Translations under genes and position numbers: made by a program
Shown here: positions 3,587 to 25,378 of the stretch, piece by piece
How positions within the stretch are numbered: the stretch's first letter is position 1
Layout: every line of letters begins with the position of its first letter
Source: Anaerolineales bacterium
GTDB taxonomy: Bacteria > Chloroflexota > Anaerolineae > Anaerolineales > E44-bin32
Length of the DNA: 34,774 bases
Assembly: GCA_037382465.1 (NCBI GenBank)
Contig: JARRPX010000056.1
Location: 1 to 34,774 of the forward strand
Direction: 5' to 3'
The notes under the pieces: generated by a model
Databases searched by the model: none
Told to the model about the DNA's origin: nothing
The model's input: only the letters and a program-made list of their open reading frames with translations

Positions 3587-3838
3587 TCATGGGACAATGA
3601 CGGGATCCAGTTCTACCCAAGATCTCCCGCCGTTCGTGGTGTATACGAGAGACACGGCATCGTCGTTGGTCACGATGGCCCATCCGACCTGCTCGTTGAT
3701 GAAGTCGAAGTGGACGGAGTGCCATGCCACGGTCTTGATCGTGGTCCCGGTCAAACCGCCATCCGTACTTTGCTGCAATCTACCGGATTGGCTCTCATGT
3801 GAAGGATAAGTCTCTTCATTTCGCCCGAATCCAACCAC
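3587..3838 (-). pseudogene. C-terminal stub of a BNR/Asp-box (YCF48-like) protein
   Basis: An 83-residue frame with VHFDFINEQVGWAIVTNDD and then VYTTNGGRSWVELDP, which is the end of a BNR/Asp-box propeller of the kind found in photosystem stability factor/YCF48-like secreted proteins; STDGGLT is a second, degraded Asp-box. Such proteins are normally more than 300 residues with a signal peptide. Here the upstream 160 bases contain no continuation in any frame, so the gene has lost its 5' part. There is no convincing ribosome-binding site. Called a remnant. Confidence 0.6.
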
Positions 3839-5088: not shown

Positions 5089-5275
5089 TATCGCTAAATT
5101 CGACTGGATCAGCTCAAGGGCAGCCAATCCGCTTTCCAGCATTCAAAGCATTTGACTATTCGCTGCTGTTCTCCCGCCGTGGCGGCAAGGAAGATTCATG
5201 ATAGTAGACTACTTTCCACTCATCCTTCATTTTCCGGAACACAAAACTGGCACCGGCTCGCTCAAAAACGTCCCG

Positions 5276-5332
5276 TTCGCCATTCTTAAAGCCAGCCTCA
5301 GCTTTGTAAACCCACGAGAGGATCGCCGTATT
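5276..5332 (+). repeat. Inverted repeat arm 1 inside the NTF2-like gene
   Basis: 57 bases, identical without mismatch to the reverse complement of 5416-5472. Similarity continues weakly beyond it through AAAAACG after a 5-base gap. The two arms are separated by 83 bases. This arm lies in the intact coding frame. Confidence 0.9.
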
Positions 5333-5415
5333 AGATCCCAGAATCCGATATTCCCGCTGCAGGGTGGTCAATGTAAAGGTGGAACAATCCATCAGATAAT
5401 CGACGTTATTTTTCA

Positions 5416-5472
5416 AATACGGCGATCCTCTCGTGGGTTTACAAAGCTGAGGCTGGCTTTAAGAATGGCGAA
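5416..5472 (-). repeat. Inverted repeat arm 2 inside the NTF2-like gene
   Basis: Reverse complement of arm 1 over 57 bases. It replaces the expected middle of the domain, so this arm is the inserted copy. The junctions carry short shared stretches (TATT at one end, AAAAACG near the other), as expected of template switching. Confidence 0.9.
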
Positions 5473-5664
5473 CGTTTTTCACACCCGGCGATCAGTGTAT
5501 CAAGGGCTTCGCGCAGTTCGCGTTCTATCAGTTCTTTTTCGGCAAGCGTTAGTTGTTCCGAGCGCATCGTTTCTCCTTCTACGCAGTAATCTACTGTGAC
5601 CTAATCCTAAACAGGCTTTGCGCTTTCGCGGGCCCCGGCGTTCTTCTTTGAAGCAGCTCACCCT

Positions 5665-8030: not shown

Positions 8031-8932
8031 TCATGCGGATTCGCGGACGATCAGTTCGACCGGCATGGTCGTGTTCGTCAACAAACCCGTCTGCAGGTAC
8101 TGGAGCAGATTCTGAGACAGCGGCGTCCATGCCTGCGCAGCTCTTTCAGCGCCTCGATCGCCATCAAGTCGCTGTTGATGAAGACCGCATCCAGGTCCGG
8201 GGCTTGCTCCAGTAAAGTGCGCATCGCCACCGCCCCCGACGTATCCGTGAAGTCACCGTGGGCGATCAGTGCAGAATCGAGGCTTCTGCCTGCATCCTGC
8301 AGGGCCTGCTGGTAACCATCGAAACGATACTGGACTTCGAGTTCTTCCGCGGGGCCTCCCAGGAAGGCGATCCGCCGTCTTCCGGATTGAATCAGGTGCT
8401 CGGTTGCCAGCCTGCCGCCGCTCAGATTGTCGCCGCACACGCTGCAGTACTTCATACCCGGCTTGGGCGGTCCCCAGACGATGAAAGGCGCCTCCATCTC
8501 GACGAGCGCCTGGATGTGATCCGATTTCCTCGTCGAGGTCATCAGGATGAAACCATCCACACGGCCGGTATCCAGATACATGTGTGCCCACTCCGTTTCG
8601 CGCGGATCGACGTGAACCACGAGCATGTCGTATCCGTTTTCTGACAACCCGCTGGAGATCCCGCCCATGATCTCCAGTCCGAACAGATCCGCCACCGAAA
8701 ATTCCTTGTGATAGGCGTGGGTGACGAAGGCGATCGTGTTGCTCTGCTGCAGACTCAGCCGGCGAGCCGGAATGTTGATGCGGAACTGATGCTGCTTGGC
8801 GATGGCCCGGATGCGTTCCCTCGTCTCGTCCCCGATGAGCGGGCTGTCGTTCAACGCCCGCGACACCGTTGATTTGGAAACCCCGGCCAACCGGGCGATG
8901 TCAGCGATGGTTTTGACGTCTTTCTTGCTCAT
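8031..8932 (-). pseudogene. LacI-family regulator, internally deleted and out of frame
   Basis: The N-terminal helix-turn-helix is intact (TIADIARLAGVSKSTVSRAL), followed by the hinge and most of the sugar-binding domain (NTIAFVTHAYH, GRVDGFILMTS, GGRLATEHLIQSG, FINSDLMAIEALKEL). After LRRHGR near 8130 the frame jumps: in another frame the sequence continues as LSQNLLQYLQTG and MPVELIVRESA followed by TGA at 8031, the usual LacI-family C-terminus. The segment between, normally VPxDVAVVGFDD ... PPLTTVRQP, is absent, so roughly 100-130 bases are deleted. Read straight, the protein ends at 284 residues with a nonsense tail. It sits at the 3' end of the O-demethylase/uronate locus and probably was its local regulator. 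DNA binding could survive, but effector response should be lost. Confidence 0.85.
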
Positions 8933-11269: not shown

Positions 11270-12694
11270 TCACTCCCCAAGTCTGTAGGCGTGCCTGGCC
11301 AGATTGTAGGCGCAGTCCTTTGCCATCTCCGAGGCGTCCTCTCGATCAACGATGCCGCGCATCACCAACCCGGCGATCCAGTTGGCATCGACACGGCGGG
11401 CCAGGTCATGCCGGGCGGGGATCGAGGGGAAGGCGCGCGTATCATCATTGAAACCGACCGTGTTATGCAGACCGGCGGTCTCCATCACCTGATCGCGATA
11501 GCGCATCATACCGTTGACGCTGTCGTGGAACCACCAGGGTGGACCAAGGCGCATGGCCGGGAAGAGTCCGGCCAGCGGGGCCAGCTCTCGCGCATACGTC
11601 GCTTCGTCGAGTGTGAAAACGATCAGCCTCAGCCTGGAGTCGTTGCCATACTTACTCAGCAGCGGGCGCAGGTTGTGCGTGAATTCGGCGCTCTCTGGGA
11701 TGTCAACGCCCGTGTCGGGACCGAAGCGCTCGGCAATCAGTTCATTGTAATCACGCACCGATCCCACGTGGAACTGCATCACCAATCCATCCTCGATACT
11801 CATCCGGGCGCTTTCCATGATCATGTGGGCCGTAAAGCGGCGGGCGTCCTCGGTCGTGGCGGCACCGCGAAGCGCGCGCTGGAAAATTGCTTCCGCCTCG
11901 GCGGCCGTCAACTCGGCCGTATATGCGGATACTGCGGCGTGGTCGGTGGAAAGTGCGCCCATCTGCTTGAAGAAAGCCCGCTGCTTTTCCAATGCCTGGA
12001 TGTATTTCGGATAGGAACCGACCGTGATACCGCTGATATCACTAAGCGCATCGACGTCTCTTTTCCAACCTGGCGCGTCGATGTTCACAACAGCATCAGG
12101 CCGGAAAGTGGGGCGAATATCGCCCTTCCAGCCGGACTTCTTGATAACCTGGTGATGCTCGAGGGGATCGGTAGCGGCATCGGTCGTGCACAGCACCTCG
12201 ATGTTGAACTGCTCGTAGAGAACACGGGGCCGGTATTCCGGCTTGCGCAGTGCGGCTTCGATCTGGTCATAAATCGATTGGGCGGTATCGCCGCAAAGCT
12301 TCTCGCGCACGCCGAAGACTTCATACAATTCCTGCGCCAGCCAGGAACCTGTCGGGGTACCACGGAACAGGTAGAAGTGCTCGGCAAAGATCTGCCAGAT
12401 CTTGCGATGATCCGCTTCGACCTCCCCACCATCAATGCGGGGCACACCCAGCGATTCGAGCGGAATGCCTTGTGAGTACAGCATTCGGTAGATGTAGTGA
12501 TCAGGGATCAGCAGCAGTTCCGCCGGGGTGCCGAATGTGGCATTCTCATCGGCGAACAACCAGGGGTCGACGTGCCCATGGGGGCAGATAAGCGGCAGCG
12601 CCGCGACTTCCTCGTACAGCTCCATCGCCAGTTGACGATGGGTCGGAGTTGGATCAAAGAAGCGATATTCAGGCAGGCTCAGCGGCTTTCGCAT
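11270..12694 (-). CDS. uxaC: Uronate (glucuronate/galacturonate) isomerase
   Basis: A 474-residue protein of the UxaC family in the amidohydrolase superfamily, of the usual length. Near the N-terminus LICPHGHVDPWLF gives the HxH metal motif (His39, His41), then IPDHYIYRMLYSQGI; near the C-terminus LGPPWWFHDSVNGM and VGFNDDTRAFPSIPARHD correspond to the conserved substrate and metal region. It converts D-glucuronate to D-fructuronate or D-galacturonate to D-tagaturonate. The HGHVDP form differs from the HCHLPP motif of E. coli UxaC and marks a separate subfamily. AGGA lies 9 bases before the ATG. It follows the URO-D methyltransferase by 223 bases and precedes the SDR stub. Confidence 0.88.
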   Translation of the reverse strand: MRKPLSLPEYRFFDPTPTHRQLAMELYEEVAALPLICPHGHVDPWLFADENATFGTPAELLLIPDHYIYRMLYSQGIPLESLGVPRIDGGEVEADHRKIWQIFAEHFYLFRGTPTGSWLAQELYEVFGVREKLCGDTAQSIYDQIEAALRKPEYRPRVLYEQFNIEVLCTTDAATDPLEHHQVIKKSGWKGDIRPTFRPDAVVNIDAPGWKRDVDALSDISGITVGSYPKYIQALEKQRAFFKQMGALSTDHAAVSAYTAELTAAEAEAIFQRALRGAATTEDARRFTAHMIMESARMSIEDGLVMQFHVGSVRDYNELIAERFGPDTGVDIPESAEFTHNLRPLLSKYGNDSRLRLIVFTLDEATYARELAPLAGLFPAMRLGPPWWFHDSVNGMMRYRDQVMETAGLHNTVGFNDDTRAFPSIPARHDLARRVDANWIAGLVMRGIVDREDASEMAKDCAYNLARHAYRLGE

Positions 12695-18748: not shown

Positions 18749-18772
18749 AGAGGGCTGCTTACGCAGCCCCCT
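18749..18772 (-). terminator. Intra-operon hairpin after the binding-protein gene
   Basis: GGGCTGC-GTAA-GCAGCCC, a 7-bp GC-rich stem with 2 further pairs beyond one mismatch, 23 bases past the stop of the SBP gene. There is no T-run directly after it, so it is better read as an mRNA-stabilising or attenuating hairpin that lets the binding protein be made in excess over the membrane components, as known for many importer operons. Confidence 0.5.
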
Positions 18773-18794
18773 CCTTGCCTGTCAGATTTCTTTC

Positions 18795-20774
18795 TTATTG
18801 CTCAATCCAGAACTGTGGTGGATCCTGGGTTCCGGGTGTGAAGACCAGCCAGTCCGAAGTATGGTTCTCCATGACGTTGTGGAAGTTGTCCTTGACAACG
18901 ACCAGGCCGGGCGACATACCGACCGTGCCGATGGCGAACAGCCCTTCGGTAGACATCCTGACGATCTTCTTGGCGATCTCTAGCTGCTCGGCGGGATCCA
19001 CACTGGCTTTGTACTGATCATACAGATCCTGTACTTCCTTCAGCGTTGCGGGTGGTTCCTCACCTTGCTCGCCGCCCGACTTGTACCACACGCCGAACGC
19101 CGGCCCCATCCACGAACGTTCGTCGAACGGGAACAGGTAGATTGGGTCGACCATTGGAACCAGTCCGCGGTCGGTCTCCCAGGTGGCGATCATGACTTCG
19201 TTCGAGGTGGCTCGCGGCCAGTAGATGTCGCGCGACATGGTCTCCAAGACGGTCTTGAGGCCGATGTCATTCCAGCCGTCAACGATCAGTTCCAGGGTAT
19301 CCATGCTGGCGCCGGAAACAGCGTCGGTCGCCTCTACGGTCAGTTCGACCGGTGTGCCGTCTGCGAAGGTGTAGAAACCGTCGGCGCCCTTGACCAGGCC
19401 GGCGGCGGCGAGGAGTTCCTCGGCCTTCGCCGGATTATACTCGGCAAAGTAATTCTCGATGTCCTGCTGGAAGAGCGGTGAATCGCGTACGACGGTGATC
19501 GTGCGCGGGATACCCTGTCCCAGGAAGGCGACGTTGTTGATCATCTCGCGGTCGATCCCCAGCGACAGCGCCTGTCGGAACTCGAGGGTCTGCATCAGGG
19601 CGCGGTACTTCTCGTCCGCATAACTCTGGTTCGGAAAGATCGTGACGTTGGACGCAGCGGCCGTGCTCCACAGCAGTGTGTGGTAACCACCGGCCTCGGC
19701 GTTATCCTGGTAAACGGTGTACTTGGCGAAGTCGATTCGGCGGTGCTGCATGCTCAGTTCGCCTGCAATGGCCATCACATTGATTGCCTCGTTGTCTTCA
19801 ACCAGCGTGTAGTGAATGCGATCGATGTATGGGAGCTGCTTGCCGTCCGGGTCGACTTTCCAGTAGTAGGGGTTGCGCTCCGCGGTCATCTCGGTCGCGC
19901 CCTCTTCCCACTCGCTCACCTTCCAGGCGTACATCACGGGCAATTCGGTGTTGAAGTTGAATGCCTTGTTCTCGAAGTCCTCGTAGGTCGCCTCCGGGTT
20001 GTATTTGGGATGGTACTGCTCCAGGTAGTGCCTGGGGGCGAAGAACCCAAAGCGCTCGAAACCCAGCGGCCACTGGCCGCCGTGGAATGCTAACCCTACG
20101 CTCTCGGCCAGGCCGTTGGGGGCGGCAAACTTGAGGGTAATCGTGGCATCGTCGATCTTCTCCAGCACCATTGGTTCGCCATTGACTACCCACTCTGTGT
20201 GCGGGGCAGCCGTGATGTTCGGATCGTTCTCGATGTCTTCCCACCAGAAGATGACGTCATCGACGGTAAAGGGCTCGCCATCCGACCACTTGAGGCCCTT
20301 GCGGAAGTACAAGGTTAATTCCGTGCCGTCGGCTGACCACTCCCACTTCTCCGCCATACCGGGTTGGATGGGGTCGGCAGGGTCGCGCGGCCAGCGCAGA
20401 ACGGCATCGTAGATCAGGCGACCGAGTGCGTGGAAGTCCTTCACGCCGAGGAAGGCGCGTTCCCAGGTGCCGCCGTACTCACCGATCGACTCGACGGGTT
20501 CAACAACGAGCGGATTCTCTGGCAGACGCTCTTCGACGGGAGGAAGCCCCATATCGGCCAGCATCGGCGCCTCGCTATAGGCAGCAGCCGGTTCCGCAGG
20601 AACAACCTCTTCGGGTTCTCCTGCTGCAGGCTCTTCTGGGGACGCTTCGGGGGGTGCTTCTGACGTCCCTGGGAGGGGGGTGGTGGCACAAGCAGAGAAT
20701 ACCAGAGACAAAAGTAGAGCGAGTAATACGGTTATCCAGATCGTGCGTTTACTTGCATGGTATATCGTTTTCAT
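18795..20774 (-). CDS. ABC importer solute-binding lipoprotein, SBP_bac_5 family
   Basis: A 659-residue lipoprotein. The start chosen is the ATG at 20774 with GAGGAG 7 bases upstream; the longer in-frame version adds 39 non-signal residues. The signal peptide ends in the lipobox VFSAC, followed by a Pro/Glu/Ala-rich linker. Family motifs: YDAVLRWP, PGMAEKWEWSADGTELTLY, KGLKWSDGEPFTVDDVIFWW, ALSLGIDREMINN and YNPAKAEELLAAAG. This is family 5, known for peptides and nickel but also widely used for oligosaccharides in Thermotogae and Chloroflexota. Its place before permeases, a methyltransferase and uronate isomerase points to a sugar or methylated uronate ligand (inference). Confidence 0.9.
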   Translation of the reverse strand: MKTIYHASKRTIWITVLLALLLSLVFSACATTPLPGTSEAPPEASPEEPAAGEPEEVVPAEPAAAYSEAPMLADMGLPPVEERLPENPLVVEPVESIGEYGGTWERAFLGVKDFHALGRLIYDAVLRWPRDPADPIQPGMAEKWEWSADGTELTLYFRKGLKWSDGEPFTVDDVIFWWEDIENDPNITAAPHTEWVVNGEPMVLEKIDDATITLKFAAPNGLAESVGLAFHGGQWPLGFERFGFFAPRHYLEQYHPKYNPEATYEDFENKAFNFNTELPVMYAWKVSEWEEGATEMTAERNPYYWKVDPDGKQLPYIDRIHYTLVEDNEAINVMAIAGELSMQHRRIDFAKYTVYQDNAEAGGYHTLLWSTAAASNVTIFPNQSYADEKYRALMQTLEFRQALSLGIDREMINNVAFLGQGIPRTITVVRDSPLFQQDIENYFAEYNPAKAEELLAAAGLVKGADGFYTFADGTPVELTVEATDAVSGASMDTLELIVDGWNDIGLKTVLETMSRDIYWPRATSNEVMIATWETDRGLVPMVDPIYLFPFDERSWMGPAFGVWYKSGGEQGEEPPATLKEVQDLYDQYKASVDPAEQLEIAKKIVRMSTEGLFAIGTVGMSPGLVVVKDNFHNVMENHTSDWLVFTPGTQDPPQFWIEQ

Positions 20775-24244: not shown

Positions 24245-25190
24245 CTACTTGCCTGGCAATGAAGCAACGAAGTCGGCCACCAGATTGAGATTCGCCTTTT
24301 CTTTACGCCAGGGCTTATCTCCCCACTGTATGTGCAGCGGATCGACCAGGGCGACGATCAGCATGTCGAGGTCACGCACGATAGCGATCTGCTGCCCGCC
24401 GTGCCCCCAGGCGAGATTGTAGCGGTAGTCTCCGGCTTTGATCGACCACCACAGGTAGCCGTAACCGTTGTCACCCCAATTTTTCCCCACACGGATTTTC
24501 CAGGTCTTCTTCGAGTAGGCCTGCAGGGATTCGTCCACCCAGGCGGCCGGGACGATTTGCTCCCCGTTGTATTTTCCATCGTTGAGGTACATCAGGCCGA
24601 ACTTGGCCATGTCGGTGGAAGATAGATCGAGATCCGAAAAGCCCAGGTAGTTGCCGTCCCAATCCCGCTGCCAGAACCCCGGCTCGATTCCGAGCGGATC
24701 GAAGAGATGCTCCTGGGCAAAAGATTTAAGGTCGGTCTCGCAGGCGCGGGCCACGATGATGCCAAGAATGTGGGGGCTCAGGTTGCTGTATTCAGAGTCG
24801 GAACCCGGATCGCGAACGAGGGGGACATGGACGAGGGTGTCGGTATGAAAGCCGGTCACGAGCAGATCGAACAATTCCGGGGTCGATTCTTCCCAGGGAA
24901 AGCCGGCCCGCATCTGCAGCAGCTGCCGGATGGTGATCTCGTTCTTGCGTGGATCGGTAATCTGACTCTTCAATTCCGGGAAGAAATCCATCATCTTCTG
25001 GTCGACGCTCTCGATGCACCCTTCTTCGATGGCGATGCCCACCAGCGCCGAGGTGATACCGGGATGTCGGCGCGTAGTCCACGGCGTCGAGTTCGGCACG
25101 GCTCGGCCCGCATCCGACGAGGACGGAAAGGATGACGACCATGCTTGTAATCGTGAGCAGCAAATACCTGCGCGGGTGAGAAAATACCAT
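24245..25190 (-). pseudogene. Class C beta-lactamase-like serine hydrolase, SxxK region deleted
   Basis: The true N-terminus is the lipoprotein signal starting at the ATG at 25190 (YLLLTITSMVVILSVLVGC) followed by RAELDAVDY. Near 25070-25085 the frame changes: the continuing family sequence ITSALVGIAIEEGCIESVDQ, then DPRKNEITIRQLLQMRAG, is in another frame. The residues between, which hold the SxxK nucleophile and general base, are missing (my estimate is at least 150 bases). The later motifs remain: YSNLSPH (YxN) and WGHGGQQ (HGG, the KTG equivalent). So the protein should be both out of frame and catalytically dead. An upstream in-frame start at 25339 gives only nonsense residues before the junction. 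Confidence 0.8.
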
Positions 25191-25378
25191 CGCAACTCCT
25201 CCTGAGGTTTATTGAAGTGTACCATTTCCCCTGTACATGACTGCTGCCGGTTTCGAGTCTTCGGAGATCCGGCATTACAGGCCATCGATCGCCCGCCCGG
25301 TTTGAATGGGCCGGTTTCCGGTTTCCCTTTAGGGCTCAACCGTCGATAGACGAGCTCAGCCGGTCGGGGGGAAAAGAC

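Follow-up and report, generated by a model that had tools for sequence, protein, structure and literature searches.

An inverted duplication of 59 bp with an accompanying deletion in an NTF2-like gene of an Anaerolineales draft genome: template switch or assembly artefact

Short-range template switches, as formalized in the four-point model of Loytynoja and Goldman, copy a nearby stretch as its reverse complement before the original strand is regained, leaving a single inverted repeat and a deletion between points 1 and 4 (PMC7954356). Template switches in great apes mostly follow the 1-4-3-2 and 3-2-1-4 patterns, with copied stretches of at most 128 in length and a median of 12 (PMC7954356). 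In bacteria, comparable events go by the name of quasipalindrome template switches (cited in PMC8794818). Inverted copies also arise outside the cell: chimeras formed during multiple-displacement amplification (MDA) have a single inverted junction, at which intervening sequence is deleted (PMC1855051). In E. coli, inverted copies able to form hairpins are prone to subsequent loss, a process in which SbcCD is involved (PMC13334657).

Here, we describe an inverted duplication in a draft genome of an Anaerolineales bacterium. It is located in contig C56, which was analyzed over its whole length of 34,774 bp and is referred to as the window. The duplication shares the above characteristics of the four-point model and in its anatomy would correspond to the 3-2-1-4 pattern or the mirror pattern 1-4-3-2, although at 59 bp it is long against the great-ape median. 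With quasipalindrome correction (Ripley 1982; Dutra and Lovett 2006; both cited in PMC8794818) it would share the fold-back of the new strand and the copying of that strand by itself. Such a correction, however, perfects an existing imperfect palindrome, whereas in the window no long prior palindrome but only short homology is apparent. MDA chimeras likewise combine inversion, deletion and short homology, yet they possess one junction between segments mostly within 10 kb of each other (PMC1855051), while the window contains a 59-bp copy with two junctions. Small inverted triplications, described in yeast and tumours, resemble the locus in their short inverted copy, short spacer, few homology bases and ability to form hairpins, but are arranged as DUP/INV/DUP with parts of about 150 bp (PMC13334657), in contrast to the one inverted copy plus deletion found here.

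Anatomy of the inverted duplication and its effect on the gene

The two arms are exact reverse complements over 59 bp (5274-5332 and 5416-5474), with 83 bp between them, and extend to 62 bp (5274-5335 and 5413-5474) if one mismatch is allowed. The 57 bp for which the original prediction had claimed reverse complementarity (5276-5332 and 5416-5472) are exact and lie inside this match. The chance expectation for such an arm pair in the window is about 1e-28. No other inverted repeat of at least 17 bp with separate arms is present in the contig, and a genome-wide search for the 59-bp sequence returned no other copy, the only further match being that of the repeat to itself.

As had been predicted, the repeat sits in an NTF2-like gene. 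The minus-strand segment from position 5422 matches PF08332 (CaMKII_AD) with 32.1 bits against a cut-off of 22.1. This match covers only the second half of the domain, starting at about profile position 48-63 and reaching the profile end. The frame concerned, from 5416 on, reads LKNNVDYLMDC...REYRILGSNTAILSWVYKAEAGFKNGERDVFERAGASFVFRKMKDEWKVVYYHESSLPP. Proteins of solved structure that are related by sequence are NTF2-like association-domain proteins, albeit with weak similarity (3h51, E 0.005). The upstream part of the gene lies in a separate frame, which begins with an ATG at 5567 followed by 31 codons (MRSEQLTLAEKELIERELREALDTLIAGCEK), runs into the inverted copy at 5474 and then meets a stop inside the copy. 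Since the spacer and the left arm read through unbroken, the left arm is the original and the right arm the copy (Table 1). The copy is bounded by two junctions 59 bp apart, and the gene resumes in sense at 5415. Because the copy brings both a stop and a frame change, the NTF2-like gene is inactive as assembled.

The first half of the CaMKII_AD domain is largely missing. When both halves of the gene were joined by a run of X, the Pfam match did not extend into the first half. Comparison with the profile suggests that about 30 codons are gone; this size is a profile estimate because no close intact relative was found. The earlier claim that the copy has replaced the middle of the domain is true in substance, with its extent being given by this estimate. 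No close relative of the gene was present among 40 relatives of the organism, and about 300 genomes of the class yielded two weak matches but no close one. None of these genomes shows the same structure, for which a comparison with relatives had been proposed. Searches of viral contigs and plasmids gave no match. Two loci were retrieved from the GTDB contigs, neither of which was usable as a relative: one is a fragment of 25 residues and the other a chance match in a phosphatase-like protein. Members of the CaMKII_AD family from across the phylum are too distant to define the missing part.

The outer junction of the copy carries a candidate microhomology. The motif AAAAACG(T), 7-8 nt in length, recurs at about 5263-5270 on the plus strand, 5 bases outside the source arm. 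A match of at least 7 at such a junction position is found for 0.5% of random pairs (P about 0.005).

Table 1. Features of the interrupted NTF2-like gene in the window.
Feature	Position	Strand	Remarks
Original 5' part of the NTF2-like gene	5475..5567	-	MRSEQLTLAEKELIERELREALDTLIAGCEK; no stop between the ATG at 5567 and the inverted copy
AAAAACG at the outer junction, candidate microhomology	5473..5479	-	7-8 nt, 5-nt slip
Inverted copy, 59 bp, in place of about 90 bp of gene sequence (estimate)	5416..5474	+	Antisense in the gene direction, adds a stop codon
83-bp spacer (hairpin loop), original gene sequence	5333..5415	-	LKNNVDYLMDCSTFTLTTLQREYRILGS runs unbroken into the CaMKII_AD match
Source arm (original), belonging to the CaMKII_AD domain	5274..5332	-	NTAILSWVYKAEAGFKNGERD; in frame within the PF08332 match
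Remainder of the 3' part of the gene	5159..5273	-	VFERAGASFVFRKMKDEWKVVYYHESSLPPRRENSSE; PF08332 up to position 128/128

Inverted duplications elsewhere in the genome

The draft genome comprises 3.73 Mb in 126 contigs, with 95% completeness, 3.7% contamination and short N runs (18-39) representing scaffold gaps. We surveyed 1.89 Mb of it for inverted duplications with arms of at least 24 bp, 80% identity and a distance within 600 bp. Besides the locus in the window, two long inverted duplications were detected, L068 and L158, while perfect arms between 21 and 57 bp were absent from the stretches scanned.

L068 (G000:C32:12262-12319 and 12343-12400) possesses perfect arms of 58 bp with a gap of 23 and lies in a gene for an FAD-binding subunit of the molybdopterin dehydrogenase type (CoxM-like), in which PF00941 is matched in two pieces, together with CO_deh_flav_C. 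This gene was matched in 21 of 24 genomes of the same family, the matches listed lying in open frames of about 250-320 codons. The layout is that of the window locus: the 5' part of the gene is followed by an inverted copy of a downstream stretch, the spacer, the source and the 3' part. For L068 the ancestral state is known from relatives, so the switch points can be ordered there. An alignment with 11 relatives of the same family reveals that 12 codons (36 bp) between CRLE and GTIM have been replaced. At the outer junction 10 bp are shared as inverted homology, as the native TGC CGG CTC GAG (C-R-L-E) contains CCGGCTCGAG and the far end of the source carries its reverse complement, CTCGAGCCGG. 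At the inner junction the native GCGGGACG shares GCG, about 3 bp, with the copy.

The arms of L158 (G000:C36:78765-78865 and 78942-79042) are 101 bp long, 97% identical and separated by a gap of 76; their differences are as would be expected of an older event. In this locus (18765-19042; G000:C36:78765-79042), the N-terminal part of a PF06983 (VOC-like) gene stands inverted beside the rest of the gene. L158 also abuts a RibD_C gene that is seemingly frameshifted.

Origin of the inverted duplication

The structure is a known kind of copying error, being either an ordinary mutation type or an artefact. We consider the chances about even that a template switch in the cell gave rise to it. During replication of the plus strand, the new strand would have copied the source arm and the adjoining 83 bases, after which its 3' end may have folded back, held at the tip by two or three base pairs, and copied 59 bases of its own arm. 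The strand would then have detached and, via the short shared sequence, annealed to the true template at a point ahead, skipping an estimated 90 bases. The same product would arise from the mirror event, in which the strand jumps ahead to the opposite strand and returns. Either course would result in an inverted duplication together with a deletion and thereby inactivate the NTF2-like gene. For both perfect cases, the window locus and L068, the model would involve a tip of 2-3 bases, about 58 bases copied, a return aided by 7-10 shared bases and tens of bases skipped. Fold-back and return explains each feature with one event. The anatomy, the broken frame, the bases in common at the junction and the matching second event with its ancestral state are observed, whereas we infer a living cell rather than an in vitro step as the place of origin, the direction in which the strand was copied and how much was deleted at the window locus.

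The original prediction had offered a template switch at short shared bases next to an inverted chimera of MDA or misassembly. Of these, the template switch fits well. The copy has two junctions with homology at the return, which fit a switch of the fold-back-and-return kind, and the 7-8 nt shared beside one junction of the window locus are joined by the 10 bp and about 3 bp of L068. A simple MDA chimera is the poorer fit: here the original strand is regained after the copy, unlike in the single-junction chimeras described (PMC1855051). The perfect identity of the arms, which had been read as a sign of a recent event, carries this meaning only if the event is real. If it is, the locus would be a clean case of a bacterial gene inactivated by a long template switch and would be useful for comparing mutational spectra.

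Nearly as credible to us, at slightly below even chances, is that the structure is an artefact and that the gene is intact in the living population. Through a chimeric fold-back read or amplified molecule, or through the assembler joining two contig ends by a chance short overlap across poor coverage, the consensus could have acquired a tip of about 59 bases in reverse complement. The fragmentation of the draft and its N runs would suit such an origin. So would the arm lengths of 58 and 59 at two unrelated loci, both perfect, given that the scanned stretches contain no perfect arms of intermediate length down to 21 bp; near-equal perfect arms with such a gap below them are odd for a mutational spectrum. 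Moreover, both genes are destroyed without any later change, which likewise argues against a mutational origin, and in both loci the inverted copy is accompanied by a deletion, as a bridged coverage gap would give. The CoxM-like gene is widely kept in the family and lost here, and further genes on the window contig that look internally deleted may point to assembly trouble. Chimeras formed in vitro are, in addition, mostly inverted, with an intervening deletion and 2-21 nt of homology (PMC1855051). Against this stands that a simple fold-back or MDA chimera would have a single junction instead of two, and that the junction homology favours a polymerase over a random join. A count of broken conserved genes also revealed no clear excess over relatives: there were 13 candidate frame breaks in 370 gene regions here and 8 in 316 in relatives, many of them being fused or adjacent ABC genes. 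As this evidence weighs both ways, our estimates for the two origins were set accordingly. No paper describing such an assembly artefact was found. If the structure is an artefact, it serves as a warning that the consensus of a draft environmental genome can contain perfect hairpins and false pseudogenes, which are easily mistaken for regulatory elements or phase-variable loci.

A lineage with a raised rate of long fold-back template switches, caused for example by weak hairpin-nuclease activity or an unusual polymerase, appears improbable. The 1.89 Mb surveyed contain three short-spacer inverted duplications of 58-101 bp, while in 0.98 Mb of other genomes no inverted duplication of at least 40 bp was found and the longest was 36 bp; this difference is not significant, because the rate of this genome predicts 1.6 for the controls. 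SbcC- and SbcD-like genes are present on contig C33 of this genome, with the SbcD match below its cut-off. In another member of the class (G130, L006, 844-913), we observed a perfect 34-bp inverted repeat with a 2-bp gap.

A functional element is not supported, and we regard as very improbable that the repeat acts as an RNA hairpin under selection, serves in regulation or is a recombination site flipping the 83-bp spacer. Folding of the region, which had been proposed as a check, predicts a very stable transcript structure (-135 kcal/mol, z -16), but this stability follows from the repeat. The spacer and one of the arms simply encode part of the domain, a search of Rfam gave no match, a flip of the spacer restores no frame, and the repeat is single-copy in the genome with the structure seen in no relative. 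Least probable of all is a mobile-element remnant or a pair of diverged paralogues in inverted orientation: while inverted repeats are typical of mobile-element ends, the spacer is the host gene itself and the arms, exact and without a further copy in the genome, come from inside that gene. The coding continuity of spacer and source arm contradicts this reading.

Further damaged genes on the window contig

Three other minus-strand loci in the window were noted. In a LacI-type regulator (8078-8932), the Peripla_BP_1 match ends at position 208 of 281 and a LacI-like C-terminus (LLQYLQTGLLTNTTMPVELIVRESA) then follows in another frame, which suggests that about 120 bp were deleted internally near 8130, with loss of part of the C-terminal half. 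A gene for a lipoprotein of the beta-lactamase family (24245-25339) has its signal part (MVFSHPRRYLLLTITSMVVILSVLVGCG) and its body in different frames; the beta-lactamase-type body begins at profile position 59, indicative of a deletion with a frame change near 25040. Finally, a short open frame at 3587-3838 shows a weak match to the BNR/Asp-box repeat and is possibly a gene fragment.
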